Shown here in pieces: positions 6,251 to 60,741 of a stretch of DNA of 64,000 bases (the stretch's first letter is position 1; each line of letters opens with the position of its first letter). The notes below the pieces were generated by a model. That model was not told where the DNA came from. It did no database searches and was given only the letters and a program-made list of their open reading frames with translations. Position numbers and translations under genes: made by a program. Source of the stretch: Cloeon dipterum (lineage: Eukaryota > Arthropoda > Insecta > Ephemeroptera > Baetidae); NCBI RefSeq assembly GCF_949628265.1, contig NC_088787.1, forward strand, positions 36,506,844 to 36,570,843, given 5' to 3'.

Positions 6251-6272
6251 GACATCGTTTGGCCTGTGGAAG

Positions 6273-7596: not shown

Positions 7597-8912
7597 GAGA
7601 CTGGACTATGTCCGTCCTTCTTGCAGATGACGCAGTGCAGGTTCTGGCAGTCTTGCAGCCGATGTCCATTTTCCCCGCAGAAAAAAACAGACAAACGGCC
7701 GCTCGCTGTCAGAGCGTCTTGGTGATCTCGCTCGTGCTCGATAGCCCGTGTTTGTAAGTGAGCTAGTGTTTCCATCCCTTGGCGCGGTTTCGATAGTGTG
7801 AACTGACTGGGAAACCGGAGAGGGTGTCGTAGCGAAGCGCACTTGTCTACTTCCTGTGGGTTGTACTGTTGAGGAGTAAATGGCAGCGTGAGCCGCTTGT
7901 AACTCCTCCCTGGCTCTGGACGCGTCGAGCCTTTTCTCCACCTTTAATGCATTGCGCATGGCTTCAGTCAGAGTCGTGGGATTCATCAGGTCCTCCCTAT
8001 CAACCATTTCTGGTCTGAGCCCGTTCAGAAATTGGGAGAACGCCCTCAATTCCCTCCAATTCAATGGTCATCCAGTACATGGGGAGGTACCTCTGGTTTT
8101 GATGGGGTAATGGCTCGTAGTTTCCTCAACTTAGTCAAGAGATTGTCGTAATTCCTGGTGACGGTTTCATGAACTCCTTGCCGGTATTCGCTAAATTCCC
8201 TCTCTAGCTCAGTTCTATCATCTATGGTCTCAAACTCCCGCTTGAAGGCTTGTTTCAGGGTGGGGAATGAGGCTAGCGTGTGCACATCCAATCTTTGAAC
8301 GAGATCCCTAGCTCGGTTTTTCGTTCTTGTGGCCAGCATAGTCCTCAGTTGTGCAGGCGTTCGCTGTTGTTGGATGAGGAACAGTGTTTCCAAGGCCGAG
8401 AGGAAATCCTCCAGCATAGCGTCCTCTTCTCGCCCGGAAAAGAGAGGTAAGTTTGTCATGTCGAAGTACATGCCCGTGGTTCGCGGCGCTCCCCAGCTAA
8501 TTTGTGGCATTGCCTGGGCGGCGGCCATCACCCTTGGCTTTACTCCCAACGGGTGATGTAACATGGTGGGTCCTTCTCGATCGGGCGCCGGCGAAGGTGC
8601 ATGGCGCGAAGCCGTAGAAGAGGAAGGTGCGAACGGGGTGCAAGCTGATGGTGCCACCTGGTGCTCGTCATTTCCTCCTCTAGCGAGGTGATTCGTGGTC
8701 TCGGATCGAGGCACCCTTGTCGGTGGGGTATAATGGGAAACGTCGTCAAGGTCAACGTCGTCAAGGTCAACGTCGTCCCTGCGTGCGCTGTGATTGTCTT
8801 GACTAGAAGGACCGGCGCTAGGTTGACTCGAGTTCGTGTAGCCGTTAGGGTTTCCCAACGGACGAGGCTCAGGGTCAGAAGTCCTTCCTAGTGGTGAATG
8901 TTCCAGTGACAT
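7566..8912 (-). pseudogene. Gypsy element 1 gag
   Basis: The likely start is ATG at 8912 (MSLEHSPLGRTSDPEPRPLG), right at the point where an hAT element has inserted. The frame runs through a Pro/Ser-rich N-terminus and a capsid-like region (MYFDMTNLPLFSGREED; FLSALETLFL; LVQRLDVHTLASFPTLKQAF). After a frame change near 8060 it reaches FSQFLNGLRPEMVDREDL. After a second change near 7700 it reaches two CCHC zinc knuckles (CGENGHRLQDC and CVICKKDGHSPVSC) ending at 7566. Gag would form the particle and bind RNA. Two frame changes make this copy non-functional. Confidence 0.85.
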
Positions 8913-8917
8913 CGTGC

Positions 8918-10677
8918 CAGGCCCGGACTGGTAATCGGGCGCCCCGGGCGAAACCCCAGTGGGCCGCGGCCCAAGTGGGCCGCCCGGACTGCCCAATATT
9001 TCCAAGACTGTCAGGCGGTCCGCGTTTGTGGCTGTCGCAGCCCATATTTTTTAGTGGCTTTCCCGTGTTGGGATGAAGGCAACACACACTCTTATTATTC
9101 AATTCCTTGTTTTGGCTAAAATAATTTCAAAATCTAAGGAAAAATCTTGAAAATAAAAATCTAAAAATAAATTTTCGTTACGCTTGTTACATGCCCACCG
9201 GCCCACCGCTTTAGCCGTTCGGCCAGCTCCTCGTTAAATTTATATTATATTTTTATTGGGGAATGAGCAAACGGGAAAAACTATCATATCCTTGATTTTT
9301 CCGTCTTTGCACATAGGAATAAAAATTAAACCTAGAGCTTGATCACATACTAGGACTCGGCGGCCCCCACTTCGAGAGTGAAAAATTCGCTTTGCGTGTT
9401 TCAAACTAGCGTGGAAACTTTTGAATGCGTTATTTGGGCTGGGTTTTAATTAGATTTATGGATGAGAATAGGCCAAGAAACGGCCAAAGGAGCTAAAACT
9501 TCTTTTTTCCATTTTCGAATTTGGACTGGCGGCTGGCGTGCCTGGTGAACTAAAGCCAAATCGGCTGACCAACATTTTGCCAGGTTGGCTGATGTGAGTG
9601 CTCTAGTAGCATACGTTTCTATTTTTATTTGGAAGACGAGTAAAATTAATTAATAAAATTAATAAAATTCGAAGAAAAAAAATTGATGTCCTACTTATTT
9701 GAACAAAAGTTAAAAAAAGTTATATTGATCTGACAAAAAATTTATTGCTCAGAACCTCTGACAAGAGTGAATTTTGAGCATCACACAGATTTTAGCAACG
9801 CAACCTTATTCAATTGTCAAGTTTTCCCAGTTTTCCAAAAAAATTAGTCCAGAATAGGTTATTAATTCACATATTTGACGTCACTCCATCCATTTCAAAT
9901 TATAAACATTTATGCTGCGTTACTATAATAAATATAATCCGTATAATAAAAAATCCGTTGAAATTAAATGGCAGCTTCCTCGGTGAATAACGAGCTTTAT
10001 ATTTTTCCGTATTTCTACAGAAATATCCTGCTCAACAATGTTCGGCTACTGGTTGTAGTCCTAATTCATGAACTTCCTGTCCCGACTAGGGGCTGAGCAG
10101 GACATTATTTCTGTAGAGATACGGAAAAATAAACAGCTCGCTATCAGGGTTGCATTTGCTTACCACCCGATTTTTTCCCCACTGGTTTTTAACAATTTAA
10201 ACCACTGAATTTTTACAAATTTCTTGCGCAAGAAATGCAAGAAATGAATTTATTCCATTTTCCCCTACTTAAAATCTAAGATTTTCGGTCGGAAGTGGTC
10301 AAAATTTCCTCTTTTCTACACATATTTTTGTTTTTAAATTGCAATTTGCTGCTTCAATTTCTCCAAAAAGTCATTAAAAAATATTAAGTCGGTCATGAGC
10401 TAATAATTAGAAAATTATTGCAAACTGAGATGCATTGAACATTGCCTGCAAGAAACTATTAAAAAACGATAAAAAAACGTTTTTACCACTGCGCACTGCG
10501 TTTTTTTAATGCGGGTCTTTTGCATCCCTGCTCTCTATCCACCGAAATTAAAGGCTTTAAATTTCAATTGAAAGTTATTAAATTTTCGGGGGGGAGGGGG
10601 GTTATGGGCCGCGGTGGCTCGGTGGGCCGCGAAAATCAACAGTCCCCGGTAAAAAATTTGGTGCCAGTCCGGGCCTG
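8918..10677. mobile_element. Non-autonomous hAT element, 1,760 bp
   Basis: The ends are CAGGCCCGGACTG (8918) and CAGTCCGGGCCTG (10665-10677), a well-known hAT terminal inverted repeat. They are flanked by an 8-bp target duplication, CATCGTGC (8910-8917) and CATCGTTC (10678-10685), matching at 7 of 8 bases. Subterminal GTGGGCCGC repeats occur at both ends. The interior is AT-rich and I find no transposase. The insertion falls exactly at the ATG of gypsy element 1 gag (ATG complement at 8910-8912), separating gag from its leader and primer-binding site. Confidence 0.9.
9992..10139. repeat. Hairpin inside the hAT element
   Basis: Two inverted arms of about 43-46 bases (9992-10034 and 10094-10139) share TTTTTCCGTATTTCTACAGA with its complement and are separated by about 60 bases. 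They could be the ends of an older small MITE carried inside the hAT copy, or a stem specific to the element. Confidence 0.75.
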
Positions 10678-10720
10678 CATCGTTCGTTGTGTTTCCGTTT
10701 ACAGGTATTCGACCAGCAGA

Positions 10721-10737
10721 TCCTGGTCACGGCACCA
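10721..10737 (-). other. Primer-binding site, gypsy element 1
   Basis: On the minus strand this reads TGGTGCCGTGACCAGGA, the form expected for a tRNA primer-binding site just after a 5' LTR. The identical string sits at 40,369-40,385 upstream of gypsy element 2 gag. Its position between the LTR and the gag start supports the element orientation. Confidence 0.75.
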
Positions 10738-11689
10738 ATAATTGCTGCTACCAAAATCTTATTCAAGCCACGATCACTCAGCTGGTAAAGAAGATCGGGC
10801 GTGGTGGCGACAATCTTGACGTTAAGAATTAATGCTCTCCTCCACTAATCACTATTTGGGTGTCTCCGTATCTCTAATATTAAAGGTCGAGGGTAAGAGA
10901 GAGAAACCCAGCAATTTTTCATTGGCACTATCAGGAATATTTATTTCTATCCTCAAGTTCACAGAACGATTCGTGAATTTCCGTGGATATCTCGCCGATT
11001 CGGAGCCGTTGGTCGGTCGGTGACGAGTAACTGGTACGCTGATAAGTGGGCGTCTGGGTCCAGGCAGGAGCGCTCAGCAGCCTGGAACAGATATTCGCCC
11101 ATGAAATATGCTGTACAGCAAGTGCGCCAGTATCAGGGCTCAGAAGTCAGAGGATTCCACTGGAGCCGTCCCCCGACTACTTTGCGCGATCTGGTTACAC
11201 TCACCTCGTTCCCCGGCAGTAGGCGCGTCCGTCCGAAGCCAGGCGGGCGCCGCTACCTCCGTCCGGTGACCGTCTGCTTCCCCTGAAACAGTTGATTGAG
11301 GTGAACAGTCTCAACTTTCATGCGTGAGGGAAATCCAGTGACTCACCTTTGGTCAGTAGAGGTCAATTCCCAAGCGGGCAGATTGTGCTAGCCTCGGCTC
11401 GACGTTCCGGTGAAGACCCACTTGAAGACCGGGCGAGTCGAGTCGTTCGTAGGTAAGCTCCGTCTACATCCGCGGCCTGTGAACAAGATCGGAGGGCGAT
11501 GATGTAACGATTCTTATTTGCCCGTATGGAGCTCCACACCTGAACTAAGCCAGGGCCGGCCTGGCAACTCCCGTGACAGGTGAGGCTGGGAAGCGACGCT
11601 CTTCGGCGCTGGACGGCGTGTTGATCGTGTCCCGGCGTGGGTATCTCACGGTCGGGGCCTGGCGCCTACGGTAGCTGATCCGACTCTAG

Positions 11690-27960: not shown

Positions 27961-28086
27961 CCTTTAGTTTTTAGTTTAGTTTTTTTTAGTTTATAATTTA
28001 TATTTATTTTGAGCCAATATGTGCAGGGGCGACTCATTAAAATACGTCAATCTTATCCTAAATACAAACTAAGACTATTGTTAACA

Positions 28087-31000
28087 TTACAGTAGAAATT
28101 CACAGGAAAAGTATTCTGCCATGTCGTAATACTGGTAGGTATACACAATTCGTTTAACAGCTTTTAGAAATTCTTGGTCATCTTCTAGTAGTTTAACTCT
28201 AGCTGGTAAGGTATTGAATATCCTCGCCATCATAATAGTCGGGTTTTGAGCCGACATGGTTAATGAACAAGGTTTTACAAAGAGATCTTTGGTGGAAGAG
28301 TTTGCGGCTGCATGTCTGGTGCATGGGCCAGAAGTGGGTTTGTCGCACGCCAAGGGAAATTTATCTCTTTTCTTGACCAGGAATTTCATACAATCATAAA
28401 TGTGACGATTTTCGCGATAGGATTAAGGGTAATTGTCAAATTTTACCGACTTTATTTGCCCATCCTGAATTTTACATATGTTGTTAGGGATGTTTCATAG
28501 TGTGTAACCTGAAATTTTGAGCAAAAAATTCGGGGGCTCTTTTTGGGAAATCGCGATTTTCGAAAATTGAAAACTTCAGATAGTAAATCCGAAATATCAA
28601 GTTATCTTCGGTCCAGATTGGAATTTTGATAAGATTTTTTCACTTCTAGACGTAAATTTTTAAGTAGAACAAGTTTGCCGTTGGTCAAAATTTTGTAGGT
28701 CAAAGGTCAAGGTCACAAATTCGCATGCCAAATGTTTTGTTAAAAATATCGCAAAATACGCCCCCTCGGATTTTTTTCATGAAAACGTAAAAAATGTAGC
28801 CCTGAATGCGTAGAATCGAATGGTTAAGAGAAATCGATGGGCACTCTCGTAGATCGCGAGATATTTTGAATTTAAGGATTCGTGTCGAGCGTCCGGCACA
28901 ACGACAACATCATCCGCCGATTTTACTTTCGTAATTTACGTCCGAATATGATCTGTAACCCCACATGTTATGCATATGATTACCTAGAAAAATAAACGAG
29001 CTTTCCAGTGGTGTGCTTAAATTTATTTTTGGTATCAAACTTTTCAAGTAATAGCGGCGCGCGAAAAGAAAATATAGATTTTTCAAATATTGACATTTTT
29101 ACAAATCTCAAATCTCGGGTTCTAATCATCAGAATTGCAAAAACTACCCACCGTTGGTCTCGTCTCGACCTACCCTAACCAGCTGAAAGGTTTAGGGGTG
29201 CTTTTACCCCCTACCCCTAAGACGCTACACTTTTTTTACTTTTTTTGAGGGGGTTGAAGTATATAAACTTAGGGGTAGGGGGTAAAAGCACCCCTAAACC
29301 TTTCAGCTGGTTAGGGTAGGTCGAGACGAGTCCAATGGTGGGTAGTTTTTGCAATTCTGATGATTAGAACCCGAGGTTTGAGATTTGCAAAAATGTCAAT
29401 ATTTGAAAATTTTATATTTTCTTTTCGCGCGCCGCTATTACTTGAAAAGTTTGATACCAAAAATAAATTTAAGCACACCACTGGAAAGCTAGTTTATTTT
29501 TCTAGGTAATCATATGCATAACATGTGGAGTTACAGATCATATTCGGACGTAAATTACGAAAGTAAAATCGGTGGATGATTTTGTCGTCGTGCCGGACGC
29601 TCGACACGAATCCTTAAATTCAAAATATCTCGCGATCTACGAGAGTGCCCATCGATTTCTCTTAACCATTCGATTCTACGCATTCAGGGCTACATTTTTT
29701 ACGTTTTCATGAAAAAAATCCGAGGGGGCGTATTTTGCGATATTTTTAACAAAACATTTGGCATGCGAATTTGTGACCTTGACCTTTGACCCACAAAATT
29801 TTGACCAACGGCAAACTTGTTTTACTTAAAAATTAACGTCTAGAGGTGAAAAAATCTTATCAAAATTCCAATCTGGACCGAAGATAAGTTGATATTTCGG
29901 ATTTACTATCTGAAGTTCTCAATTTTCGAAAATCACGATTTCCCAAAAAGAGCCCCCGAATTTTTTGCTCAAAATTTCAGGTTACACACTATGAAACATC
30001 CCTAACAACATATGTAAAATTCAGGATGGGCAAATAAAGTCGGTAAAAATTGACAATTACCCTTAATCCTATCGCGAAAATCGTCATGTACAATGAGTAT
30101 ACCGTAAGAATTTCATATTTAGTGAACAATGGTCGGCATGAGTCAAGGGCAGTATTTTTCCTCCAGTATCTTAGGCCAGCCATTGCCCTTACAACTCTTT
30201 TCTGTGCGGTAAAAACGTTTTTCAGGTACGTAGACCCGCCCCAAATAATAATAGAATAAAAGATATGACTTTGGGCGTACGCAAAATAAATCTGTCTTAA
30301 TACACCATTAGACACTTTGTCTCTTAATTCGGTAAAAAGATACGTCACACTTCTAAGTTTATTGCTGACTAAATCACATTGTTCGTTCCAATTCAAGGTA
30401 TCTGAGATTATAACTCCATGCAATTTACTTATGTTTACAACTTCAATTTGAAAATTGTTAATTTCTATAAGGGGATTTATCACATTTGTCATTTGGGAAA
30501 CATGCATTTGTAGTATCTTAGTCTTACTCGCGTTCAGTGTGAGATGGTTCAGTTTTGTGTACTCAACAATTAGGTCATTTGCTATTTTAGATCTATCGTT
30601 TACTACTTTGTTGCAGGGTCCGTTAATAACGAGACTCGTATCATCCGCGAACAAACATAAAGTGGCAATTACAATATGCAGATCAATGTCATTAGTGTAG
30701 ATATTAAATCCAGTCGGACCTAATGTGGTGCCCTGGGGAATGCCCATGTGAGAAGATATATGTGTCGAGTTCACGTCACGGTATGTGTTATTGTCTTGGT
30801 CTAATACCCGGAGTTGAACAAATTGCTTACGATTTAGTAAAAACGTTTCTAGCCATTTAATTGAGTTATTGCAAAGCCCATATATTTTCAGCTTTTGGAG
30901 AAGGAGTTGCGGGTAAAGAGTCCCGAATGCATTGGAGAAGTCATAGAGGATGACATTCGTCCTCTCTTTAGCGTCAATTGATGTATGTATGTTACTTATG

Positions 31001-32784
31001 AAGTCAAAAAGTGCAGTTACTGTACTTTTTTGCTTCCTAAAGCCATGCTGATTTTGGCTGAAAAGATTATTAACGAAGAAATGGTGGTCGAGTCGGGCTA
31101 GAAATATTTTTTCAAAAATTTTAGACAGTGATGACGTGATTGAAATTGGTCTATAGTTGGAGGGATCGTCTTTTTCTCCTTTTTTGTAAATTGGGACTAT
31201 CTTTGATAGCTTCATATTTTCCGGAAATTTACCTGACACAAGAGATGTATTTATCATGTGGGCGAGTGGATTTACGATAAACAAAGCAATCTTTTTAAGA
31301 ACGTAAACAGAGATGCCATCCCACCCGGCAGAGTGTTTTGTTACTAAGTTAATAATAACACTATAAACTTCCGCGGGGCTAGTTGGAGTTAGATTGAATT
31401 GGTTTGCTATATGCGGATCTCTCATATTGTAAAGGTTTGTGTCTGTACCTTGTGACGGTGGTTTAACAACAAAGTTCGTGTTCAGAGTATTCGCGATTGA
31501 TGTCTGGTTTTTGATTACAGTGTTTCCTAGCCTAAGTGATTCAATTTTGTGTTCATTATTAATTGACTGTGATGATATTTTGACAATATTCCATGCAGTT
31601 TTGCTCTTATTTTTAGAGTTTGCTATCGCTTTGTCATTTTTCTGCTTGATTTCCGAGTTAATGCAAAAGCTAAGATACTTTTTCAATGATTTTAATTCGC
31701 GTTTAAGTTTTTCTTTGTGGTTTTTGTCGGTGACACATTTAATTGACTCGCTCACCTCGCGTAATTCAATTTTAATTCGCTTTGTTGATTCGGATAACAC
31801 AATTTTATTCATTTGGTTTGCTCTGTTGATGTATTTTTTCAAGGGAAATGACAATTCAAAGTATCTCAACAATATAGTCATAAAAGTATCACTCATAGTG
31901 TCAATATCATGTGCCTCATAAACGGATAGCCATGATTCCTTTAGCAGAAGACTTTCGAATTTTTCCCAGTTTTGATCGTTAAATACTCGTTTAAATATAA
32001 AAGTGTCAACTTGTCTGGTTATGGGAACCTTAAGGTTTACGTGAACAGCCTTGTGATCTGAGAATTGGGTGTCTAATATCTCATACGAACTATTTTCAGC
32101 CATGTTTGAGAAAATGTAATCAATTAGGGTTCCAGTTACAAAATTGTTTGGTCGCCTGGTGGCACCTGTGTGGTTAATTAACCGTAGGTCAAAAGATTTG
32201 CAAATTTGAATTAATTTGCGGGAGTGGCTATTAGTTGGTATTATAAAATCGGAAAGGTCGACATTTAGGTCTCCTGCAAGTAGGAAGTTACCGTTACCTC
32301 TATTTTTTTCCTACAAGTCCTGCAGGGTTTCAAAGAACATTTCATGGTTAGTATTTGCATTGGGATTGCTTGGTCTATAAGCTGCAATGACGGTTATTTC
32401 TGAATTGTCAAAAATTAATTTGTTCCCACAGAGTTCAATAATTAAATTGATGGACTTTAACTTAATAGTTTTAACTTTGCAAGTTAAATTATCACTTAAT
32501 AGATTTAATACTCCGCCTCTCTTTTTGGCTCTTGCGTAGTTAGAGATCAGTTTGTATCCTGGTAATTTGAATGAGTTAATTTCACACTTATCCAAGAAGT
32601 GTTCACAAATAATAATAATATCAGGATTGCTTTCAAGGTCATATATAAAATTATAAAAGAGGTTGAAGTTAACGCTGTCATGAAGTCCGTGCGCGTTAAG
32701 CGAAAGTATACTGAGGTTTTTAAAGTTTTGACTTTTTCGATTATAGTTGTTGTCACTGCAAGCAGGATTGTTTGGTGCATTCAC
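28087..32784 (-). pseudogene. LINE ORF2: endonuclease-reverse transcriptase (macrodomain LINE)
   Basis: From ATG 32,784: the endonuclease begins SQNFKNLSILSLNAHGLHD and continues with IIICEHFLDKCEI, then LLAGDLNVDL, GTLIDYIFSN and TQFSDHKAV. The RT has NYRPISITSSLSKIF, QHGFRKQKSTVTALF, YDFSNAFGTL (motif A), IPQGTTLGPTGFNIYTND (motif B) and LFADDTSLV (motif C). The C-terminal domain (QKRVVRAMAGLRYW, MARIFNTLPARVKLL) ends at 28,087. Two lesions exist: an in-frame TAG near 32,311, and a palindromic insertion at 28,403-30,086. Without the insertion and its 2-bp duplication the frame is 1,004 codons long and otherwise open. The 3' end is near 27,960 in an AAACTAAA-rich tail. Jockey/CR1-type; the RT at 3.2-4.8 kb is related. 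Confidence 0.92.
28403..30086. mobile_element. Giant palindrome (foldback element), 1,684 bp
   Basis: The left arm (28,403-29,220) and right arm (29,269-30,086) are reverse complements over 818 bases with only scattered mismatches, around a 48-base spacer containing a T-run. The ends are TGACGATTTTCGCGATAGG. TG dinucleotides flank both sides (28,401-28,402 and 30,087-30,088), and removing one restores the LINE frame, which supports a 2-bp target duplication. No coding region is evident. It looks like a foldback-type non-autonomous DNA element, or an inverted dimer of a smaller repeat that inserted as a unit. Confidence 0.9.
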
Positions 32785-32819
32785 ATTGCTTGATTGATCT
32801 AACTGTCGACTACCGTGGT

Positions 32820-34837
32820 TTAGTTTTTTGGTTGAACTGTTGCTGCTGCTCGTTTCTGGGATCTTGTTCTCAGGAACGGGCTTCCCGTTTTGTCTTGCTT
32901 TGGCGTGCGAACCTCGCTCTCAGCGTGCTCCTCTTCTTCTTTGCCATCATTTGTCTCAACATTGTGGTCGATTAGGCGGCGAGGCATCGGCGTCTTTTTC
33001 CTCTTTGTTCGTTTAGGAGCTGCTTCGCTGAAATGGGGCTCATCGTCAAAGGGGTCATTGCCAGGTGAACCTTTGGCTAAAATGGCCTCAGGGTGTTGTG
33101 AATGAATCTCACCTGACGTTTGCCCTGGGGTGGGGCCAGTCGCGGAAGGAGTGAGAACCCTTGTCGCCCCACAGGTCTCCGTACCGCGACCAGCTGATCC
33201 ACCCGCCGAGGCGACAATAGGGGTGACAGATTTTGGGGCACAGTCTCGCCATGGGGTATAGACATCACCAAATGTTTTTGACTATCGATATAAATCGATA
33301 TATATCGTCTGAAAAAATATCGATGTTAAAATATCGTCCTATATAACCTATGTTAAGCCACAAAAAACATCGATAAAAATCGATAAATATCGTCAGAAAA
33401 AATATCGATGTTAAAAATCGATTTTTATTTGGCCATGTCTAATGGGGTATATGGGGAAGTCTGCAATGTCCTGGTGATGACTTCTGCGGCGGTAGCGAAC
33501 TTGTTGCGCACGTCATTCAATCTTCTCTCCAGGGCCGATATTTTTGGGCTCCGTGTTGGCCAATGAATCGGGGAAGCATTTTCTGAGGCAGCGTCTGAAC
33601 TAATGGCAACCAGGGTAGCCATATGGAGAATTTCTGAACGCTCACCTTGTTTGTCGGCCGCTGGAGGGCTGAGCACAGGATAGGAGGTGGCCCCCTTCGT
33701 TGTGTTCTTCGGCTCGGTTGAATCTATTGTCTTGATGCCCTCCAATCCGTGCTCAGTGAGTCCCTCCTTCCGCGCGGCAGGTTGCTCCTGGACGGCTTCT
33801 GAGTCGCCGTCAAATGCGGGGGCCGTTCTGCAGCGCTGCATCAGTGTCCACTCATCCACCCTGGCAGAGGTGAAAACCTCGTGGGAAGTAGTAGGTTGTA
33901 CGTCGGTCAAGGTGACCGAGTTAGAGCAATTTGAAATGTGCTCACCTGAATTCTCTGCCGCCGGGTGGCTGTACGCAGGTGGAGGAGTGGCCCTCTTAGT
34001 CGTCCCATCTGTTATCTCGGTGGCCTCCGTCCTGCGTACAGTGAGTCCACCTGGGCTGGCGGCATGCTGTGCTCGGGCGGCATCCGGGGCGCCGCTGGTG
34101 TTCGGGGCCACTCGTCGGCTCGGCAGATGAGGATTCCGCCTCTTGTTCGGCCTTTCACAAGGTGAGGTGAAGACCAGGACTTCGGTGTTGCTTCCTGCGA
34201 ATTCTGCCTCAAGGACATCGCGGACCCAGCGCCATCCGAGGTTGTCCAGGCCGGCGCCGATTCTCGGAATGGCTAGAGTGGAGATGTGGTGCTCGGTACA
34301 TTGTCGTGCGAGATCACGGACGGCGGCTTGAAAGTCGTCCGGATGAGGTTTGCACCATGCGGAACGCGGTTTCGTGACTAAGTAATAGACCATCTTGTTG
34401 ATTCCGTCATTGTCGGGGCAGTATCTCAGTGCGGCTGTTTGTCCTGGCTTCTTTTTTAGGGACTTCAGGTGGTTAACATTTCCGAACATTTCTCTGAACG
34501 TGATTGCCAGACCGGCTCCCATCAGAAAATCTGCCCCCACGCAGTGTGCAAGGGCGGCATCCTTCGGGGCGTCCAGGAAAAGGTCGCCGGCTATTTCAAA
34601 GATTTTGGCCTTTTCTGTTCGGCAGGGCTGGTGGCTTGTGCTGGCTGCTCCGGAGTCTTCCCGGGCATCTTGCTGATTAAAAACCGCGCGCTTGATCTGT
34701 TGAAGGTCATCTAGTACCTTTTTCAGGGTAATCCCGATCCAGTGGTGTTGTTGTTCGCTACAGCCGCACCGGCAAGCCGGCCCCGCCTCCATGCCGGTTC
34801 TGGCAGGCTGATATTGCCGGCCGTAGAACACCCTCAT
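32820..34837 (-). CDS. LINE ORF1 with TARG1/OARD1-type macrodomain
   Basis: ATG 34,837 opens a frame with a Cys-rich N-terminus (CRCGC at residues 22-26), a short helical stretch (36-56) and a macrodomain at about 78-227. The macrodomain has EIAGDLFLDAP, LAHCVGADFLMGAGLAITF, YYLVTKPRSAW and IPRIGAGLDNLGW. Lys156 and Asp198 match the two catalytic residues of TARG1/OARD1, enzymes that remove ADP-ribose from acidic side chains and deacylate O-acyl-ADP-ribose. A long Ser/Thr/Pro-rich region follows. The apparent end at 33,425 is an artefact of a MITE: with one target copy kept and the MITE set aside, the frame continues to a basic KRTKRKK tail and a TAA at 32,820 (609 codons including stop). The stop lies 35 bp before the ORF2 ATG, the usual ORF1-ORF2 spacing. 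ORF1 proteins normally bind element RNA; a macrodomain here is unusual. Confidence 0.85.
33259..33441. mobile_element. 183-bp hAT-like MITE rich in ATCGAT
   Basis: The ends are TAGACATCACCAAAT and, inverted, TAGACATGGCCAAAT. A perfect 8-bp target duplication ATGGGGTA flanks it (33,251-33,258 and 33,442-33,449). The interior is made of ATCGATA and AAAAATATCGATGTTAAAA words in both orientations. The 8-bp duplication fits hAT transposition. It interrupts the macrodomain ORF at codon 464-465 and introduces a premature stop. Confidence 0.92.
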
Positions 34838-34903
34838 TTCTCACAAACTCAAGTGGAATTTCGCAGGAGATGGAAAACCCGTATCAAATTGCAGCTCGGA
34901 CCA

Positions 34904-37900
34904 CTATTTACGGCACTTGTTGTCGTCAAAATTGGATTTAGGGAACATTTTTGGCAGAGCGTAGGGACAATCAATGTTTACGCTACTAGCTAGTGCTGCC
35001 AACCACCCTCTGACCCTAAAATCCTCTTCCTTCTCTGGTTCCTCGGTGTCTTCGATAGGGGTTAACTGCAGGTTTTCGCTCGCCATCGGCGAGTCGTTCG
35101 CGGTTAGGGGTACAAATTCTGGGTTGTGCTCAGGCGTGATTGGGTTCTCATTTCGAGTGTTGTCCTCTTTCAGAGACCTCCTTGCGTTTTCCTGACCGAC
35201 CGTAAAGTAAATGGGGCTTCTTAGTTCTCTCTTCAAGATCCTTAAATGACTGGGGTGGAAGAAAAATTCTCTTCCGGTGTTAGGGTCTTGAAGGCCAACG
35301 GTGAGTTTTCCCCATTTCTGGACGACTGAATAGGGTCCTTTCCATCTAGCGTCCATCCGATTCCTGGGTTTCAGATTCTTCACCAGGACTTTATCTCCTA
35401 TTTTGATTTCCTGCATATCCATGTGGAGTTTCCTCTGTGCTTTGTCTCTAGTCGTCTTCCTAGTCCAGAGGTCGGTGCGGTGTGAATCTTCCCTGGCTAA
35501 CTCGAGATCGAACCTTAATAAGTCCAGATAATCCTTGGTGTTTAGCTTAAGCTCTCTGTTCACTATTTCTGGGCGTATTGATGCGTCCCAAGGCCCTTCC
35601 ATTGGAGACCCATACATGAGCTCGTGTGGGGAGAAGCCTAGCGATGTATGTTTACTGGCTCTGACAGCGAGTACTGCAAATGGTAGGAGTTCGTCCCACT
35701 GTTCAGAGGATGGTCCGCTTGTGAAGATGGCCAGGAAGTCTTTTAGAGCTTTATGCATGCTCTCAATGGCATTCGACTGGGGATGGTAAGGTGAGGTGTA
35801 GGCGTGCTTGAACATCAACATGGCACATATGGACTCGAATAACTCTGACTTAAACGAGGCTCCGTTATCCGTCAGAATCCTGTTGATCGTACCGTAGCGG
35901 CAGACCAGAGTGTGAGTGATGGCGATCGATATCTCTTCAGCCTCTTGTGTTTTGAGCGGCACTGCTTCTACGTACCGCGTCCAGGAGTCCATCATAGTCA
36001 GGATGTACCGATTCCCTCTTGTGGTAATAGGGAGCGGCCCCACTACATCAATCATCCATGACTTTCCGACTTGTGATGGTCCTTTAGTGAGCTGAGGTGG
36101 TGGCTTCAGGGTGGTACCTTGCTTCCTCAGCTGACATTGTCGACAGGTGGCGATGTGTTTCAGCAGATCTTTGTGCATTCCCGGCCAGTAAAGTCTGAGT
36201 TTTACTGCCGTCTCAAACTTCTCTCCCTTCCAGTGAGCTCCCCAGAGCGTTTCGTGGAATAGCTCCAGGAGACGATTTTTACAGGTTTGAGGAACGTATA
36301 ATCGTGCTGATCTGGTTCCCCATAAGTACAATAAGCCCCGTTGATCTAGGAAATATGTCCCGTCATCCTTCTCAGGTGTTTGGTCCACTTTCTTCTTCCG
36401 CTTGATGCACTCAGGGTCCTTTAATTGTTCTTCCTTGACCTGCTGAATATCAAATTGAGGCGGCAGGCCTAAGAAAAGAACATGAACATCATTTTCCGGT
36501 GGTGGATCATTATCCGCTGGTCGTGATAGGAAGTCTACCAACGGAATGGTCTTTCCTGGTACGTGGTGCACTAGAAACTGGTATTGTTGTAGTTGAAGCA
36601 CCATCCTAGCGAGTAATGGTTTTAAGGATGCTGACGCCAACAGCCATTTCAAGGAACTATGTTCTGTATATAGGTGAAACAGCCGTCCTTCTAGGTAAAC
36701 TCGGAAGTGCTCAACAGACATTACCACGGCCAGGCACTCTAACTGGCATGCTGAGTACCTGGTCTGCGCACCTGCCAGTTTAGCGCTGTAGAAAGCAACT
36801 GGCTTCCTGACACCTGGGGCTTCTTCTTGTTCAAGGACTCCTACTACTGCTCTGGCGCTGGCGTCAGTGGTCAGGTGAAACTCCTTGTTAAAGTCTGGAA
36901 AAGCTAACGCGGTGTCCATAAGTCCCAAAATCTTGTCAAAAGCAGCCTGGTGTCGTTCTTCCCACTCGAACTTTGGTTTCTTCCCCTTCAACATTTCTGT
37001 TAAAGGTAGCACCACTTCGCTAAACCCTTCGGCGTGCCTCCGATAGAAATTACATGTGGCAACTAATCCCTTAACTTCCTTGATATTGGTGGGTGTTGGC
37101 ATATTCTTGATGGCCTGGAGTTTGTCTGGGTTCGGACGGACTCCATCTTCGCTGAGTAGAAATCCTAGGAAGTGGGCTTCCTTCTTGGCCAACTGGCATT
37201 TTTGTGGGCTGAAGACGATGCCTAGTTCGATGGCTCTGGTCAAAACTTTGGCTAATCTGGTCTTCATTGCGTCCATGTTGGGTGCGTGGATACAGAAGTC
37301 GTCCACGAAGACCTCGACTCCTTTTCCGATCATATCCTGGAATCCCTTCTGAATCCAGTAACTAAATGATGGGGGTCCATTCTTCACACCATAGGGCAAT
37401 CTAGTGAACTGGAATTGGCCTACATGACACGCAAAAGCCGTCTTGTCCTGACTATCCTCCCTCAAGGGTAACTGCCAGAAACCATTGGTTAAATCTAAGA
37501 TTGTGAAGAGTTTGCTACCTCCAAACCGATCCAACACTTCTTGGACGTGAGGATAAGGTCTGATCAGCGTTTTGGTAACTTGGTTTAGGGCCCTGAAGTC
37601 TACGCATGGTCTCCATTTTAGGGTGCCATCAGTACTCTTTTTCCTGACTAGCAGTAGTGGGGCTGACCATTCACTGTTGGACGGCACTATGACTCCCATT
37701 TCTAGCATATCCTGGATGGTATCTTCTATAACTTTCTTCTGGTGGTGTGGGACTCGATACGGGCGTCGTTGGATAGGTTCAGAGCCTTTAGTGTCAATTT
37801 CCACTTCGGCCCCATGATATCTGCCTAAAGTCCTGGATCCATGAGCAAAAGCTGCGCTTTTCCCCAATAAGAGGCGTTGAAGGCCTTTCATCTCCGTCGA

Positions 37901-38545
37901 ATTCTCTAGATGCTCAAAGTTGAAGAGTTTGAGGAACTCAACGCCAGACAGAGTTGCTCCTGGAGGTCTCGGCCATACTTCAGGTTCACGGTATCCTAGC
38001 GGCTTGTGCTTAGTGAGGCAGCTCTTGCACAGCATATACTCTTCATCGTCGACTGGGCGGCTTTCACAGTCAAAGCATGAGATTTCAGGTAGTTGGTCTT
38101 CTGGGATATCCTTTAGGTATGCTATAGAGGCGTCCGGGGGCACTTCTTCTACTTGAATGTCGCGTAAGTGTCGCCCTTTAATTTGTTTCTCTTCTTCCGT
38201 TGTATTGACGCACCATACGTTGACGATTCCGCCCGAGTCTACTACTCCGTACGATGCTGGTACCTTGATTTTCCCTCCTAAATCTACTCCTCGTAACATC
38301 AGCTCAGTGCCAATTGGAGCTGTGACTTTAACTGGAAAGATTGCACTTTCAGAGGGTCGCAGCCTTGGGAGTGGGGCTGGTTTACTGGTTGCTACTACTT
38401 GTATTCGTATAGGTTCAGTCGGATCTTCTACTGGTTCAGTTAGACTAAAGACCTGGCTCCATTCTTCGTCGTCGTTGAAAGTCCTTGGCTGCTGATGTTT
38501 GTAGTACTCCAGATTTAATCTCCCCACGTGAAATCTAAGGTGCAT
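34904..38545 (-). CDS. pol: Ty3/gypsy Pol polyprotein, element 2
   Basis: A 1,213-codon uninterrupted frame. In order: linker with a CFDCESRPVDDEEYMLCKSC zinc-type motif (about residue 155); RT from about 250 (RKKSTDGTLKWRPC, FTILDLTNGFWQLPL, FVDDF at the catalytic site); RNase H (HLTTDASARAVVGV); integrase with an HHCC-type zinc region ending CRQCQLRKQ, then the DDE core (MIDVVGP, LTDNGASF, IESMHKALK); a GPY/F module (RWKGPYSVV); and an acidic tail of about 90 residues. The protein copies the element RNA and inserts the cDNA. The frame joins the protease by a shift near 38,525. It is intact in itself. The tail ends 66 bases before the start of the macrodomain LINE, so its last residues may derive from foreign DNA. 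Confidence 0.93.
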   Translation of the reverse strand: MHLRFHVGRLNLEYYKHQQPRTFNDDEEWSQVFSLTEPVEDPTEPIRIQVVATSKPAPLPRLRPSESAIFPVKVTAPIGTELMLRGVDLGGKIKVPASYGVVDSGGIVNVWCVNTTEEEKQIKGRHLRDIQVEEVPPDASIAYLKDIPEDQLPEISCFDCESRPVDDEEYMLCKSCLTKHKPLGYREPEVWPRPPGATLSGVEFLKLFNFEHLENSTEMKGLQRLLLGKSAAFAHGSRTLGRYHGAEVEIDTKGSEPIQRRPYRVPHHQKKVIEDTIQDMLEMGVIVPSNSEWSAPLLLVRKKSTDGTLKWRPCVDFRALNQVTKTLIRPYPHVQEVLDRFGGSKLFTILDLTNGFWQLPLREDSQDKTAFACHVGQFQFTRLPYGVKNGPPSFSYWIQKGFQDMIGKGVEVFVDDFCIHAPNMDAMKTRLAKVLTRAIELGIVFSPQKCQLAKKEAHFLGFLLSEDGVRPNPDKLQAIKNMPTPTNIKEVKGLVATCNFYRRHAEGFSEVVLPLTEMLKGKKPKFEWEERHQAAFDKILGLMDTALAFPDFNKEFHLTTDASARAVVGVLEQEEAPGVRKPVAFYSAKLAGAQTRYSACQLECLAVVMSVEHFRVYLEGRLFHLYTEHSSLKWLLASASLKPLLARMVLQLQQYQFLVHHVPGKTIPLVDFLSRPADNDPPPENDVHVLFLGLPPQFDIQQVKEEQLKDPECIKRKKKVDQTPEKDDGTYFLDQRGLLYLWGTRSARLYVPQTCKNRLLELFHETLWGAHWKGEKFETAVKLRLYWPGMHKDLLKHIATCRQCQLRKQGTTLKPPPQLTKGPSQVGKSWMIDVVGPLPITTRGNRYILTMMDSWTRYVEAVPLKTQEAEEISIAITHTLVCRYGTINRILTDNGASFKSELFESICAMLMFKHAYTSPYHPQSNAIESMHKALKDFLAIFTSGPSSEQWDELLPFAVLAVRASKHTSLGFSPHELMYGSPMEGPWDASIRPEIVNRELKLNTKDYLDLLRFDLELAREDSHRTDLWTRKTTRDKAQRKLHMDMQEIKIGDKVLVKNLKPRNRMDARWKGPYSVVQKWGKLTVGLQDPNTGREFFFHPSHLRILKRELRSPIYFTVGQENARRSLKEDNTRNENPITPEHNPEFVPLTANDSPMASENLQLTPIEDTEEPEKEEDFRVRGWLAALASSVNIDCPYALPKMFPKSNFDDNKCRK

Positions 38546-38871
38546 GTAGTATTCATCAGGTTAGCTTGGTGTTTCATTAAGAAGTCTTGGCCGAGTAGGG
38601 CCGAATATCCGGGGCTTACTCGTACTACCACAACTGGCAGTTTGATCGCCACCTCACTGCCTAACTGTACCAAGACCTCAGCTTGACCCAGCAGAGGCAC
38701 TTTTGTGCCTGACACTCCGCTTACTAGACTGTTGAATGGGCTAAGCTCTAATTCGAGTGTGTTTGCTAGTTCTTCGCTGACTAAGCTGATGTTTGCTCCA
38801 GAATCGATAGTAAAGGGTACTTCCAAGTGCTGAACTCTTCCCCAAAGAACATAAGTTGGGTAAGCTCGCAC
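38515..38871 (-). CDS. Gypsy element 2 protease
   Basis: Contains VPFTIDSGANISLV, the retropepsin active site with Asp-Ser-Gly-Ala, a middle strand block (TKVPLLGQAEVLVQL), and PGYSALLGQDFLMKH, the C-terminal ILG-type block. It cuts Gag and Pol. The frame ends LDFTWGD at 38,515, overlapping pol by about 30 bases. In element 1 the same junction is in a single frame, so the change here at the GTGGGGA run is more likely a small indel than programmed frameshifting, although the latter cannot be excluded. Confidence 0.88.
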   Translation of the reverse strand: MRAYPTYVLWGRVQHLEVPFTIDSGANISLVSEELANTLELELSPFNSLVSGVSGTKVPLLGQAEVLVQLGSEVAIKLPVVVVRVSPGYSALLGQDFLMKHQANLMNTTCTLDFTWGD

Positions 38872-38966
38872 CGCTAGTAAAGTTAGGTCAATTTCGGGTG
38901 TCTCACTTGAAGAATTTGTCCTAGAGTCTCACGGCAGTGACGGAGATGTTGCCGGCACGCCGCGCT

Positions 38967-40298
38967 TTACTCGTTTTTTGGGTTTTTTAAACACTGAGAT
39001 GGGCAGTGCCCTCGTTCCTCGCATATCAGGCAGTAGAGATACTCGCAGTCCTGGAGTCGGTGTCCTGGCTGGCTGCAGAGGAAACATGTGAACTTCAGTC
39101 GATCGCCTTATTGTCTTTTCGGCGAGCGTCCTCGATGAGAGCTAGAAGCCGATGGTTCCTGGGTCTGGCTCTTCTGTGACTTGGGTGGAGCTTGAGGTTC
39201 GGTTGCGCTGGACGTTGACGGCTGTGATGCATTGAACCGTACTTGACGTGGCTGTAACGGTGTGGGAAGTTGTGTAGAGTAGACAGCGAGTCGTGCCGCT
39301 CGAACTTCTTCGTTCCTTGCTTCTTCTTTAACTCGATATGCAGCAAACGTTTTTTCTGCCTTAAGAGCCATCCTCTTGGCTTGTGCTAGAGTCTTGGGTT
39401 CCAGCAGGTCGACCGTCCTGAACAGCTTTGGCTTGAGGCCATGCAAGAATTGAGTAAGTATGCGCCTGTCGCAAACCTTGTCCCAAACGTGCGGAGGGTC
39501 ATCTGAGAGAGTTGCTGCCTTAATCTTCCGCATTTTCTTCCTCAAGCTCTCGTAGTAATGCTTGACAGACTCTGAATCCTACTGTCGGCTCTCTTGGAAC
39601 TCAGTTTCTAAGGCGGTTAGATCTTCGGCGTCTTCGAACTCGGCTTTGAAAGCTTTCCTGATTTCGGTGAAGCAGGTCAGCTGTCGAAGCTCTAACTGTT
39701 GCACAAAGTCACTTGCCGGAGGCAGTGTTCTAGCAGCCATAGTTACTCGTAGATCTCCGGGAGATAGATCAGGCTGGAACATGATCAAGGTGCTAATTGC
39801 CTTCAGGAACTGATCTAGCGTAGCGTAATCGTCCTCGCCCGAGAACATGGGAATGCCTGTGATGTCAAAATATAATCCTCCTGATGGTTTACCAGACGTG
39901 AGTTTGCTATCTCGACTTATGGTTCCGACAGGGTGACGAACTGAAGGAAGCGACCGTTGTTTGCTTGATCCCTGACGCGATGATGGCTTGCTGACCAATA
40001 AGGATGCGGAGCTAGGTCTTGGAGTGCTGCGTTTTTTCTTATTGCGATCGTAAACCAAGGAAATGGTGGGTGTCATGGTCTGAAGGTCAAGAAGGTCTCC
40101 TCCCGCTGCTTCACTGTGTTGTGAATTTTCCAGGTCCTCTCGGTTATCGCTTTGTTCAGAATCGTAGCTGGTGGCATCATCTTGGCTTCGGGTGGTCGTC
40201 TTCTTCTTCTTCCCGCGCCGCGTCACTTTTCCCTGTTCGGCCCCAGCGCTAGATGGTCCTGGCTGATCCGCAGGCGGAGTTCTCGGAAGGGGAGGCAT
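38967..40298 (-). pseudogene. gag: Gypsy element 2 gag
   Basis: From ATG 40,298 (MPPLPRTPPADQPGPSSAGA) through a basic/acidic low-complexity N-terminus to a capsid-like block (LYFDITGIPMFSGEDDYATL, FVQQLELRQLTCFTEIRKAF). There is an in-frame TAG near 39,579, then LTQFLHGLKPKLFRTVDLLE, a Ser/Pro-rich stretch and a TAA near 39,108. In the same region two CCHC zinc knuckles follow (CFLCSQPGHRLQDC, CLICEERGHCPSQC), ending at 38,967. Apart from the two stops the order is that of element 1. Gag would package the RNA. Confidence 0.88.
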
Positions 40299-40368
40299 CT
40301 TGATACTGTGTTAAAGTAAGTGGTTGTTGCGTTGTGTATGCGTAAGCGTGACCAGATAGCTCCAGCAA

Positions 40369-40385
40369 TCCTGGTCACGGCACCA
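40369..40385 (-). other. Primer-binding site, gypsy element 2
   Basis: Minus strand TGGTGCCGTGACCAGGA, identical to the string at 10,721-10,737. It lies about 70 bases upstream of the gag ATG and directly next to the presumed LTR end (AATT before TGG). Confidence 0.8.
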
Positions 40386-41278
40386 AAATTGCTTCGCTCT
40401 CCCACGTGGATCTCGCGCCACTCGCTGGAAAAGTGGAGCGGAGAGAGGCAACAAAAGACTATAACCAATCGCCGGCCGGCTGAGAAGGCGTTCGAAGATG
40501 CGAGCTAGGGCGTATAGAAACGAGCTGTCTCGAAGCAAAGGCGAGTACTTATTCAGCCAATAGCCTCGCAGTAGTGTTAGCTCCTTTGCTCACACCACAG
40601 TTGCCTATGGCGTCGTTTCGTTCAGCTGGCCGGAGCACAACAATTGCAGAAGGTCTCTTTGGATAGTTAGAAATTCTATAATTCGGGTGATTCGTGGTCA
40701 AGAGGTGAGTCGCTGGCGGCAGAGCCGCACTAAAACCCAATAATTCCGATATTAGCCGTTAGGCGATTTTATTTGTTCGGTCTGTCTGACAAGTCGTGGT
40801 TTTCTCGTCGCGCTAATGTCTGTGTGTTTGTGTATGTTTCAGCGACAGTGTGTTTTGTGCTGATTGCCGTTCTTATCTGCTGGTGGATAGCGGCCGCGCG
40901 TCTGCTACTTGGGCCGAGGGGTGATCCTACAACAGACCGAAGAAATGAGGTGAGTGACGGATTTATTGTGCCTTCAGATTGTGAGTCTATTAGGGATCAG
41001 CCGAGTACTAGGCTGGTCGTAAATAGAGTCGCTTACCTGAGTTAGGTGCTCTAATCTTTTCTCTCTGCTTTCCAGGTCGTAGGCTACGTCAAGGGTTGGT
41101 CCGTCCTCGAGCACTCCTGCGAACAAAATAAACTCGGGTGATCAGGCCGTTCTAAATTGCCGGGGAGGTTAACACTCACAGGTAAGGACTGACGTAGGGG
41201 TGTTCCCTCCTCACTGAAGCTAGTTTTCTTCCTAGGGCTGCCTGCCACAGTCGGTCGCCTTACAGGTCACTCCCGGCT

Positions 41279-43412: not shown

Positions 43413-45053
43413 TTGATAAATAATGGCGATGAGACCGTAATGTATGAAGAACTTGCTAAAGGAGCCAATTTGTGCAAGGAAGATGTGAAAGGACTGTCCC
43501 TGGACGAAGCAGTTCATTCAGCAGTGAAATACATCCTCAGTAAGTACATAACCACATTACTCAGAATTTTGTATATTATTTGCACTGCTAAAAGTCAAGA
43601 TACTGGATACGAAAAAATGTAGACATAAGACTTTAGGTAGTATGTCAAGAAATTAGCAAAATCAAAAAATTATGTAATTTATGATCTCGTTTTTCAATAA
43701 CAATACTTGGAATGTAAAAAGTATTGAGAAACGCATATTTATATTATTAATCTGTTGCTTTTCTATCCCTCCTGAGAGGTTTCCTAAATCATCTGACTCT
43801 GTTAAGTACTTAAAATTCTATGTTCGCGATTTGCGATGTCATCAGGCAAAAACAATTTTATTGCAAAATGAGAGCAGCAAAGCAATATAATAGGAAAAAT
43901 TTTCACTAGTAAAGAATATACTGCAAATTAGTTTGGGGAAGGACATGAAATTTCAGCTACGGCACTGGGTTATCCTAATAAATAATGAATGATATTTTGA
44001 AAAATATACTGGTTCTTTTCAAACTTGAATTCATTCATGAATTTTCGACATCTAGCTAAACAATGGTTCGACGTGTTTAAGGATATTGAGGCAGTCCGCA
44101 GTTTCCAGCCTAGCCAAATGAATATGCTCTCTTTGAAGCAAGTTATCTTGCAGGCCAAGGCAAAGAGACCCAAGAAGAAGAAAAAAAAGGAAACAGCTGT
44201 TGCAGGTATACTGAAAAATAAATGAAAATTCATAAAATAACACAAACGACTAGGAGTAACAGTTTAAAGCCGTGAAGAACTTTATAAAGAAGAACAATAT
44301 CTTAAGCAATTCAAAATAGGAAGTATTCTTCGTTTGGATGCCTTGGACGAAGACGATAGATCTTGACAGATGCTGAAAAATGGTTATGTTAATGAATGAA
44401 AATGTTCAAATTATAATAGTAAATCAAATTTTTTTAGGACTGAGTGTCCATCAAGGATTGAAAGGTGTCAAAAGTAATATTTTTGTAGTCTAAACTACGG
44501 ATATTCTAGAAAATTGAAACAAATTTCTTTCCATGTACACGTAGAATTCCCACCCCCATTGACTGAGGTCGACTCTGAGGAAGACCTTCCTTCAAAAATG
44601 GACCACTCATTAGCCAGTACCAGCAAGGTCCAGAACAAAGGTAAGCCAGATGGGCACGCGCGTCAAGCGCCCATACGCACCCGTCATGCACCCAATAGTA
44701 CGCGTCATGCACCCAATAGTACACGTCATGCACCCAATAGTACGCGTCATGCACACTGAAGACCGCGTCATACAGCAATCCTGCATGATGCACAAAGGTG
44801 GCTGCTGCATGACGCGTACTATTGGGTGCATGACGCGTGCATTTGAGCGCAATTGAGCTGTACGCAGTTCTAGCATCGCTACTCTTACATTTGTGATATT
44901 ATTTTTTTAACAATTTTTTTTTCTTTTCAGCTTGTACGGAAGCCAAGAAGAAAGGCATCAAGGACCTTGGGGAAGAGCAGGAAAAGGCGAATGCGTTGAA
45001 ACCCAGCAAACCCATGGAATCAAGGGCCAGCACCAGCCAGGTGCAGAACAAAG
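43413..45053 (+). CDS. Unrecognised multi-exon gene (exon fragments)
   Basis: Four plus-strand open blocks end in good donors. The first, 43,413-43,539 (MYEELAKGANLCKEDVKGLS), ends at GTAAGT. The second, about 44,022-44,205 (RHLAKQWFDVFKDIEAVR, then a KRPKKKKKK nuclear-signal-like run), ends at GTATAC. The third, about 44,545-44,640 (EVDSEEDLPSK, LASTSKVQNK), and the fourth, 44,931-45,053 (after TTTTCAG; KPMESRASTSQVQNK), end at GTAAGC. The third and fourth end in near-identical sequence and the introns after them start with the same 40 bases and the same minisatellite. This indicates an exon-intron tandem duplication. Exons 3 and 4 share phase, so both could be spliced in. I do not know the protein; the lysine run suggests nuclear location. 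Confidence 0.45.
44660..44850. repeat. CGTCATGCACCCAATAGTA minisatellite, array 1
   Basis: Units of about 20 bases (CGTCATGCACCCAATAGTACG) repeat four times, then appear inverted (GCATGACGCGTACTATTGGG). The array can fold back on itself. It follows the donor at 44,641. Confidence 0.92.
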
Positions 45054-45069
45054 GTAAGCCAGATGGGCA

Positions 45070-45655
45070 CGCGCGTCATGCGCCCATACGTACTCGTCAT
45101 GCACCCAATAGTACGCGTCATGCGCACTGAAGGCCGCGTCATGCAGCAATCCTGCATGATGCGCTAAGGTGGCTGCTGCATGACGCGTACTACTGGATGC
45201 ATGACGCGGCCTTCAGTGTGCATGACGCATCAAATGAACGCGTCACGCACCCAAATGTACGCGTCATGCACCAAAAAGTACGCGTCATGCGCCCAAATGC
45301 ACTCGTCATGCATCCAGTAGTACGCGTCATGCATCCAGTAGTACGCGTCATGCACCCAACAGTACGCGTCATGCACACTTAAGGCCGCGACATGCAGCAG
45401 CAACCTACACGCATCATGCAGGACTGCTGCATGACGCCTTATAAAGTGTGCATGACGGGTACTGTTGGGTGCATGACGCGTACTACTGGATGCATGGCGC
45501 ATCAAATGAACGAGTCACGCACCCAAATGTACGCGTCATGCAACAAAAAGTGCGCGTCATGCACCCAAATGTACGCGTCATGCACCAGAATTTCGCGTCA
45601 TGCACCCAAATGTACGCGTCATGCACCAGAATATCGCGTCATGCACCTGTGGGTG
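45070..45655. repeat. CGTCATGCA minisatellite, array 2
   Basis: More than 20 units of about 20 bases, with variable spacers between invariant CGTCATGCA cores (CCCAATAGTA, CCAAAAAGTA, CCCAAATGTA, TCCAGTAGTA). Orientation switches at least twice (inverted units near 45,130-45,235 and 45,415-45,500). It directly follows the donor at 45,054. Confidence 0.92.

Positions 45656-60708: not shown

Positions 60709-60741
<33 letters not shown>

Follow-up and report, generated by a model that had tools for sequence, protein, structure and literature searches.

Why would a retrotransposon encode, ahead of its endonuclease and reverse transcriptase (RT), a macrodomain resembling that of the human hydrolase TARG1? 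This question is raised by a long interspersed nuclear element (LINE) in Cloeon dipterum, located in a 64,000-nt stretch of NC_088787.1 (36,506,844–36,570,843), here called the window, whose own positions are used for all part coordinates. An earlier note on this DNA (the original prediction) proposed that the first open reading frame (ORF1) of the element carries a TARG1-type macrodomain. We find the same gene order and an intact catalytic dyad in nine working LINE families (A–G, I and J), and the domain is under purifying selection. We consider it likely that these LINEs make an ORF1 with a TARG1-class macrodomain, fuse it to ORF2 by −1 frameshifting, and use removal of ADP-ribose to aid insertion or evade restriction. 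We know of no LINE ORF1 class with a macrodomain.

A macrodomain of this class is expected to resemble the human enzyme and to carry its catalytic residues. Residues 75–224 of the window ORF1 match the human TARG1 structure (PDB 2lgr) with an E-value of 6.6e-25, and TARG1 is also the best solved-structure match for the macrodomains of families D (1.6e-26) and E (5.4e-10). In a profile search, the check that the original prediction proposed, the Pfam Macro model gives the window ORF1 19.6 bits, under its cut-off of 22. The catalytic lysine and aspartate of TARG1 align with Lys156 and Asp198, as predicted for a complete domain; we take the TARG1 partner of Asp198 to be residue Asp125. In the available text of PMC7050489, Lys84 of TARG1 is named and its partner is printed as Glu125, but the TARG1 sequence in PDB has Asp in that column. 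Both residues are intact in all 13 aligned LINE ORF1 rows (locus L019, where no RT was found, supplies two of these as ORF1 pieces) and in five of five aligned non-LINE macrodomain rows from the same genome. Identity to TARG1 is 33–40% in families A–D and 20–27% in E–G, I and J. Judged by sequence, the LINE ORF1 carries a TARG1-class macrodomain: it shares the domain over its full length, and the Lys/Asp pair, with human TARG1/OARD1 (ALC1-like hydrolases). Unlike TARG1, the LINE domain is embedded in an ORF1 with a putative coiled coil and a long basic tail.

The known LINE ORF1 types I–V (Khazina and Weichenrieder; Metcalfe and Casane 2014, PMC4120745) likewise lie upstream of an endonuclease-RT. 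As the available text of the latter describes them, types I–IV have RRM/CCHC, coiled coil-RRM-CTD, PHD or esterase, and type V is unclassified. A Pfam scan of six ORF1 proteins (window, L012, L013, L030, L037 and L033; L020, L036, L050 and L051 lay outside it) detected no RRM, CCHC zinc knuckle, PHD or esterase, and neither "macro" nor "ADP-ribos" occurs in the main text of PMC4120745. The esterase ORF1 of CR1/L2/RTEX elements, as presented in the available text of PMC5408684, likewise puts a hydrolase with a coiled coil in the LINE gag position but differs in fold and chemistry. No description of a macrodomain LINE ORF1 was found in the open-licence literature (subscription papers and Repbase were outside its scope). 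RNA viruses carry macrodomains that counter host PARPs; there too a parasite bears an ADP-ribose hydrolase, although of another macrodomain class and in a virus rather than a retrotransposon.

If the domain belongs to the LINE, it is expected to recur in the same position in other copies. As queries against the animal's own 190-Mb genome (10 contigs) we used three proteins, namely ORF1 of family A, ORF1 of family E and the RT of family A; we then inspected the surroundings of macrodomain matches L011–L030, of RT matches L031–L038 and, later, of L050 and L051. Whereas Pfam Macro alone matched 5 loci, the window ORF1 matched 49 and the family E ORF1 61 (counts that include stretches of ORF1 tail as well as macrodomain), and elements of this kind could thus go unnoticed elsewhere. 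A macrodomain ORF1 followed by an endonuclease-RT was found in families A (window, L011), B (L012, L018), C (L020–L023), D (L013–L017, plus an ORF1 piece in L019), E (L030 and near-identical copies), F (L036), G (L037), I (L050) and J (L051). Copies with intact reading frames exist elsewhere in the genome, families C and E providing examples for ORF1, and the ORF2 of L020 comprises 949 amino acids counted from its first ATG. Families D and E are young, with copies sharing about 99% identity or more. When the family A RT serves as query, an RT match lies no more than 5 kb downstream, on the same strand, of 20 of the 49 macrodomain matches; three of these 20 are fragments of a single element, and the D copies are missing from the count, their RT being too divergent to be picked up. 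That an endonuclease-RT unit follows the macrodomain ORF, as predicted, is confirmed in the window, where Exo_endo_phos_2 precedes an RT ORF whose sole Pfam domain is RVT_1, the arrangement, lacking RNase H and integrase of LTR type, by which we recognize a LINE endonuclease-RT. The family D ORF2 matches the RT structures of R2 (3.7e-15) and LINE-1 (4e-13), which does not settle its clade. In three of the four D copies examined, the unit as a whole is bordered by target-site duplications (13, 12 and 15 bp), that of L014 falling within a short repeat; no clear duplication was found for the window copy, L011, L031, L020 or L021.

A domain that serves the element is expected to be conserved among its copies, and a test for purifying selection was among the checks that the original prediction proposed. 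The ratio of nonsynonymous to synonymous substitution rates (dN/dS) was estimated by the Nei–Gojobori method, and P was obtained by Fisher test on the counted sites. For the macrodomain, dN/dS is 0.09 (L013/L015), 0.08 (L015/L019), 0.07 (L013/L019) and 0.07 (A/B, where dS is 2.3, near saturation), with P <1e-23 in each comparison. The corresponding values for the ORF1 tail are 0.54, 0.44, 0.55 and 0.44. Between C and D and between F and G, macrodomain dS is saturated and tail dN/dS is 0.53 and 0.66; for L020/L021, L013/L014, L015/L017 and L015/L016 the changes are too few to judge. These substitution patterns indicate that purifying selection is acting on the macrodomain.

The macrodomain could instead be a reader, binding ADP-ribose or RNA without useful hydrolysis and either targeting PARP-marked breaks or chromatin or packaging RNA as an RRM does. 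Something else must bind RNA, given that the six scanned ORF1 proteins have no Pfam RRM, zinc knuckle, PHD or esterase, and targeting could be reflected in the clustering of RT matches towards contig ends (of the 64 matches, 55 are on contigs C1–C5, and 47 of these sit no more than 3 Mb from an end, a zone that makes up 16% of the sequence of these contigs). However, both dyad residues persist throughout the LINE rows, even those 20–30% identical, and since a mere reader need not keep them, we regard this reading as unlikely, if worth weighing.

Following ORF1, the endonuclease and RT must be translated as well. The original prediction had an ORF1 stop closely followed by the ATG of a separate ORF2. 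The stop is present, but the ATG is not: the first codon of the ORF listed from 32784 is GTG, and in the window copy the ORF2 frame has no ATG ahead of the endonuclease motif. The predicted layout of two ORFs with an ORF2 ATG is wrong: relative to ORF1, ORF2 is shifted to the −1 frame, which stays open across the ORF1 stop. Within the last 14 codons of ORF1, an in-phase slippery heptamer is found in ten of ten families, including a family H described below: A_AAA_AAC in A, B, C, D, F, G and H, A_AAT_TTT in E, A_AAT_TTC in I and T_TTA_AAT in J. The background rate outside these 14 codons predicts 0.03 per family, which is not a formal probability because the families share ancestry. A recognizable endonuclease motif is present in 18 of 19 loci (L023 is the exception), and A_AAA_AAC in 16 of these 18. 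From the end of this heptamer to the end of the stop codon the distance is 33 nt in 12 of the 16, 3 nt in three (family A) and 105 nt in one (L018), and 15 of the 18 loci have no ORF2-frame ATG before the endonuclease motif. The −1 frame and the in-phase heptamers together predict an ORF1-ORF2 fusion, and ORF2 is most likely made in this way, by −1 slippage at the heptamer. More speculatively, one ribosome covers approximately 30 nt, close to the constant 33 nt that separates slippery codon and stop end in six families, and a ribosome paused on the stop codon may be what sets the frameshift.

Several known LINEs use reinitiation, and ORF2 might be expressed here by termination-reinitiation at a non-ATG codon rather than by frameshifting. 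One or two in-frame ATGs do precede the endonuclease motif in families F, G and H, and a clear stimulatory structure was not found downstream of the heptamer. Nevertheless, the heptamer ends ORF1 in every family and its spacing from the stop is identical in most loci that have A_AAA_AAC, which makes reinitiation a distinctly unlikely explanation, and we retain the frameshift. Frameshifting is not mentioned in the available text of PMC4120745, although no literature search was aimed at frameshifting in LINEs.

The families fall into different groups according to which part of the element is compared. RT identity is 46–70% among A, B, C, F, G and H, with E at 34–36% from these, while D, I and J form a separate RT group (53–79% among themselves, 22–27% to the others). 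Yet A and D share 24% identity in the RT and 60% in the macrodomain, and C and D 25% and 66%; conversely, D and I share 64% in the RT and 24% in the macrodomain, and A and F 49% and 24%. The simplest reading of this clash is replacement of ORF1 between groups, and whole ORF1s have probably been replaced in this manner; for other ORF1 types, reticulate exchange of whole ORF1s between lineages is proposed in the available text of Metcalfe and Casane 2014 (PMC4120745). The claim rests on pairwise identities because the tree tests are not strong. Macrodomain trees are weakly supported, and approximately unbiased (AU) tests neither show nor reject monophyly of A–D (p 0.336) or of all LINE macrodomains (p 0.406). 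Families E, F and G lie on one side of a branch (95/94) in the macrodomain tree. When D is left out, a grouping of A–C with F and G is just rejected (AU p 0.042), whereas A–C with E–G (0.084) and A–C alone (0.146) are not. Similarity in the 5′ untranslated region (UTR) between the two RT groups is marginal.

Could the domain be a fragment of a host TARG1 gene, transduced by chance and without a role in the element? A source is available, since the genome holds L026, which is 54% identical to human TARG1 and probably the host TARG1 gene, as well as further macrodomain genes at L024, L025 and L027–L029 where LINE parts were not found; moreover, the macrodomain tree places the TARG1 rows of host and human, albeit with weak support, among those of A–D. 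We reject the passenger gene as very improbable: the complete dyad is spread over nine families in two RT groups, and dN/dS of 0.07–0.09 is not near 1. Membership in the gypsy long terminal repeat (LTR) element next to the LINE is almost certainly wrong even though the macrodomain ORF shares a strand with the gypsy pol ORF, begins 66 bases after it and resembles pol more closely in codon usage (correlation 0.82) than it does the LINE RT (0.49), because L011 has macrodomain ORF, tail and endonuclease-RT but only the LINE-derived last codons of pol, and LINE similarity begins at 35004, within the pol ORF. The original prediction had named proximity to an LTR-flanked gypsy pol as a sign against the LINE; among 20 macrodomain loci, one other pol match was found (L018), distant (25–27%) and ~1.4 kb upstream, pol and not LTRs having been compared at these loci.

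Assignment to DarG, the DNA ADP-ribosyl glycohydrolase antitoxin of DarTG, was also rejected. The macrodomains are related, and the NCBIfam DarG model matches the window ORF1 at 2.3e-10, but the score is 40.3 bits against a cut-off of 250, there are no DarT matches in the genome, and there is no operon. No relatives were found in viral contigs by the window ORF1, gypsy pol or a five-row macrodomain alignment, or in bacterial and archaeal genomes by that alignment.

From these sequences we infer a TARG1-like enzyme activity and a purpose for it. ORF1 combines a Cys-rich, putatively coiled-coil N-terminus, the macrodomain with its dyad, and a long, low-complexity basic tail. Most ORF1 would remain free and coat RNA, and a minority product would join the macrodomain to the endonuclease and RT. 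The LINE nicks DNA, where PARPs act. The domain may strip ADP-ribose placed by a host PARP response on proteins or nucleic-acid ends, at the ribonucleoprotein and at the nicked target, and the tethered copy would be positioned to clear it from DNA ends, ORF proteins or PARP itself. Insertion would be helped or restriction evaded, and evasion of a PARP-based response is plausible. In vertebrates LINE-1 is restricted by ZAP, which is PARP13, and insects usually have few PARPs. Against that background, the 24 PARP-domain matches in this genome (found exon by exon, some with stops, with clusters including contig C1 at 8.32 Mb, C3 at 7.55 Mb and C2 at 35.50 Mb) are suggestive but circumstantial. 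Six of the 24 are L044–L049, several of which have a Cys-rich CxxC segment (two checked by Pfam); L047, the one match compared with solved structures, resembles tankyrase (E 2.8e-24). The substrates of TARG1 itself, according to the available text of PMC7050489, are O-acyl-ADP-ribose esters, ADP-ribose on the ends of nucleic acids, and modified proteins, and that text speculates that RNA ADP-ribosylation may aid recognition of transposon-derived RNA. Removal of thymidine-linked ADP-ribose from DNA by TARG1, and the failure of the K84A mutant to rescue, are described in the available text of PMC8501950.

Several observations weigh against this proposal. All evidence comes from one genome. Among 39 5′-complete RT matches, 21 have a macrodomain ORF1 upstream and 2 the ORF1 tail alone, but for 16 no macrodomain ORF1 was found. 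The 16 comprise L031 (a 5′-truncated family A copy, 99% identical in the RT), family H, L032, L035 and L038 (no recognizable ORF1 found upstream of the RT), L043 (C8:215877, another LINE type) and ten unopened matches. In family H (L033), an apparently whole ORF1 of 548 amino acids has no macrodomain by profile search, and at least one lineage can thus do without the domain; another RT match with the same 46% identity to A probably belongs to H too. Copies lacking the domain, which the original prediction counted against itself, exist beside the nine families that have it. The glycine-rich loop of E, F and G departs from that of TARG1 in the alignment, and substrate or activity could differ there. 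Single-sequence structure prediction was of low confidence (mean pLDDT 43.9) and was not used. Folds of the 100 nt downstream of the heptamer are no more stable than those of shuffled sequences (z −0.9 to 1.0 in 14 loci; simple folds without pseudoknots). ORF1 codon usage, as noted, sides with gypsy pol, and the PARP matches may be unrelated to the LINE macrodomain.

Of the two halves of the LINE machinery, the ORF1 protein is the one that is poorly understood. If the proposal is correct, an ADP-ribose hydrolase in ORF1 ties retrotransposition directly to PARP signalling at DNA nicks, offers a natural handle on whether ADP-ribosylation restricts or assists transposons, and adds a transposon to the genetic parasites bearing macrodomains. 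The −1 frameshift with its fixed spacing would be a second testable mechanism in the same elements. It is possible, though we suggest it only tentatively, that these LINEs represent a sixth ORF1 class, in which an ADP-ribose-erasing module has moved whole between distant LINE groups, reaches the cut site frameshift-fused to the endonuclease-RT, and is maintained by an arms race with an expanded family of host PARPs.

Table 1 Parts of the window LINE copy and the gypsy element around it (window positions).
Feature	Position	Strand	Basis or remark
LINE family A copy	27968..35004	-	both ends and both inserts by blastn against L011 and L031
LINE 5′ UTR	34838..35004	-	starts GGTTGGCAG; doubles as the last ~32 codons of the listed gypsy pol ORF
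ORF1 first part (470 aa)	33425..34837	-	Cys-rich N-terminus, putative coiled coil, macrodomain, low-complexity tail
Cys-rich motif and putative coiled coil, residues 22-52	34682..34774	-	by eye, translation
TARG1-type macrodomain, residues 75-230	34148..34615	-	structure match; dN/dS ~0.07 against family B
Lys156 codon (equivalent of TARG1 Lys84)	34370..34372	-	alignment
Asp198 codon (equivalent, presumably, of TARG1 Asp125)	34244..34246	-	alignment
AT-rich 181-bp insert in ORF1	33261..33441		10-bp duplication; absent from L011 (blastn)
ORF1 C-terminal tail	32820..33260	-	stop 32822-32820; 98.6% identity to L011
In-phase slippery heptamer A_AAA_AAC	32823..32829	-	directly 5′ of ORF1 stop
ORF2 frame (-1 relative to ORF1), endonuclease N-terminal part	32311..32829	-	stop at 32313-32311
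Endonuclease second part, same frame past stop	32095..32310	-	Pfam Exo_endo_phos_2, 6.6e-05
ORF2 reverse transcriptase part, same frame	30086..32103	-	Pfam RVT_1, 7.5e-27
Palindromic (foldback) insert in ORF2, 1,682 bp	28404..30085		absent from L031 (blastn)
LINE 3′ end, ACTAAA-type repeat tail	27968..28403	-	98.2% identity to L031
gypsy LTR element around LINE	35005-40400	-	gag 40298-39108, protease 38871-38515, pol from 38545

The window copy (Table 1) is ~5.2 kb long once its two inserts are subtracted, and blastn places its insertion site in the gypsy pol gene. Pol residues 1182–1213 are found in the LINE copy L011, where the rest of pol is absent; the last ~32 codons of the pol ORF are thus LINE 5′ UTR. 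ORF1 was predicted as a single open frame from 34837 to 32820, but it is interrupted by the AT-rich insert, in which ATCGAT motifs recur and whose ends carry the 10-bp duplication; upstream of the insert, identity to L011 is 98.7%. Comparable Cys-rich/coiled-coil stretches were read in families B–D, and tails homologous to the window ORF1 tail occur in B, C and D. The ORF2 frame has 172 open codons counted from the heptamer and includes the endonuclease motif LSLNAHGL. The listed RT ORF continues to 29989, within the palindrome, a foldback element with arms of ~830 nt that are 97% complementary around a 24-nt centre. With two inserts and a stop in ORF2, this copy is broken. No LTR-like pair was found around the LINE unit within the window. 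The 3′ tails are of ACTAAA type in family A and TCTGAA type in C; for family D no clear repeat was found at the 3′ end apart from TTGATTGA in L013 and L014. Upstream of L030 and L033 lies a common repeat containing CTATCGATT, and the flanks of L013 and L015 are repeat arrays around the LINE copies.

Other macrodomain genes of this genome were noted as well. L024 and L025 are 84% identical in the domain and have basic tails; no LINE was found in 10 kb around each, and they could be host TARG1 paralogues or domesticated ORF1s. A partly tandem gene family (MSRQE...) at L027, L028, L029 and C5:23.16–23.99 Mb, in which LINE parts were not found, has the dyad intact in its two aligned rows.

The gypsy gag ORFs were named by position, Pfam giving no match in them. 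A primer-binding site, which we take to be tRNA-His-like, was seen by eye near 40386, and an LTR pair was not found in the window. Another gypsy element, broken and akin to the first, lies at 6260–10746; its 34 bp at 10713–10746 are 94% identical to the primer-binding region of the first, and a pol stretch is 75% identical. Elsewhere in the window, a 5′-truncated LINE near family E occupies 3217–4758 (89% identity to the L030 RT), and 57449–62438 holds two inverted copies with 79% DNA identity, one containing an ORF that is presumably yellow/royal-jelly-like. A 21-bp repeat array in both orientations, e.g. CCAATAGTACGCGTCATGCAC, spans 44613–45649.

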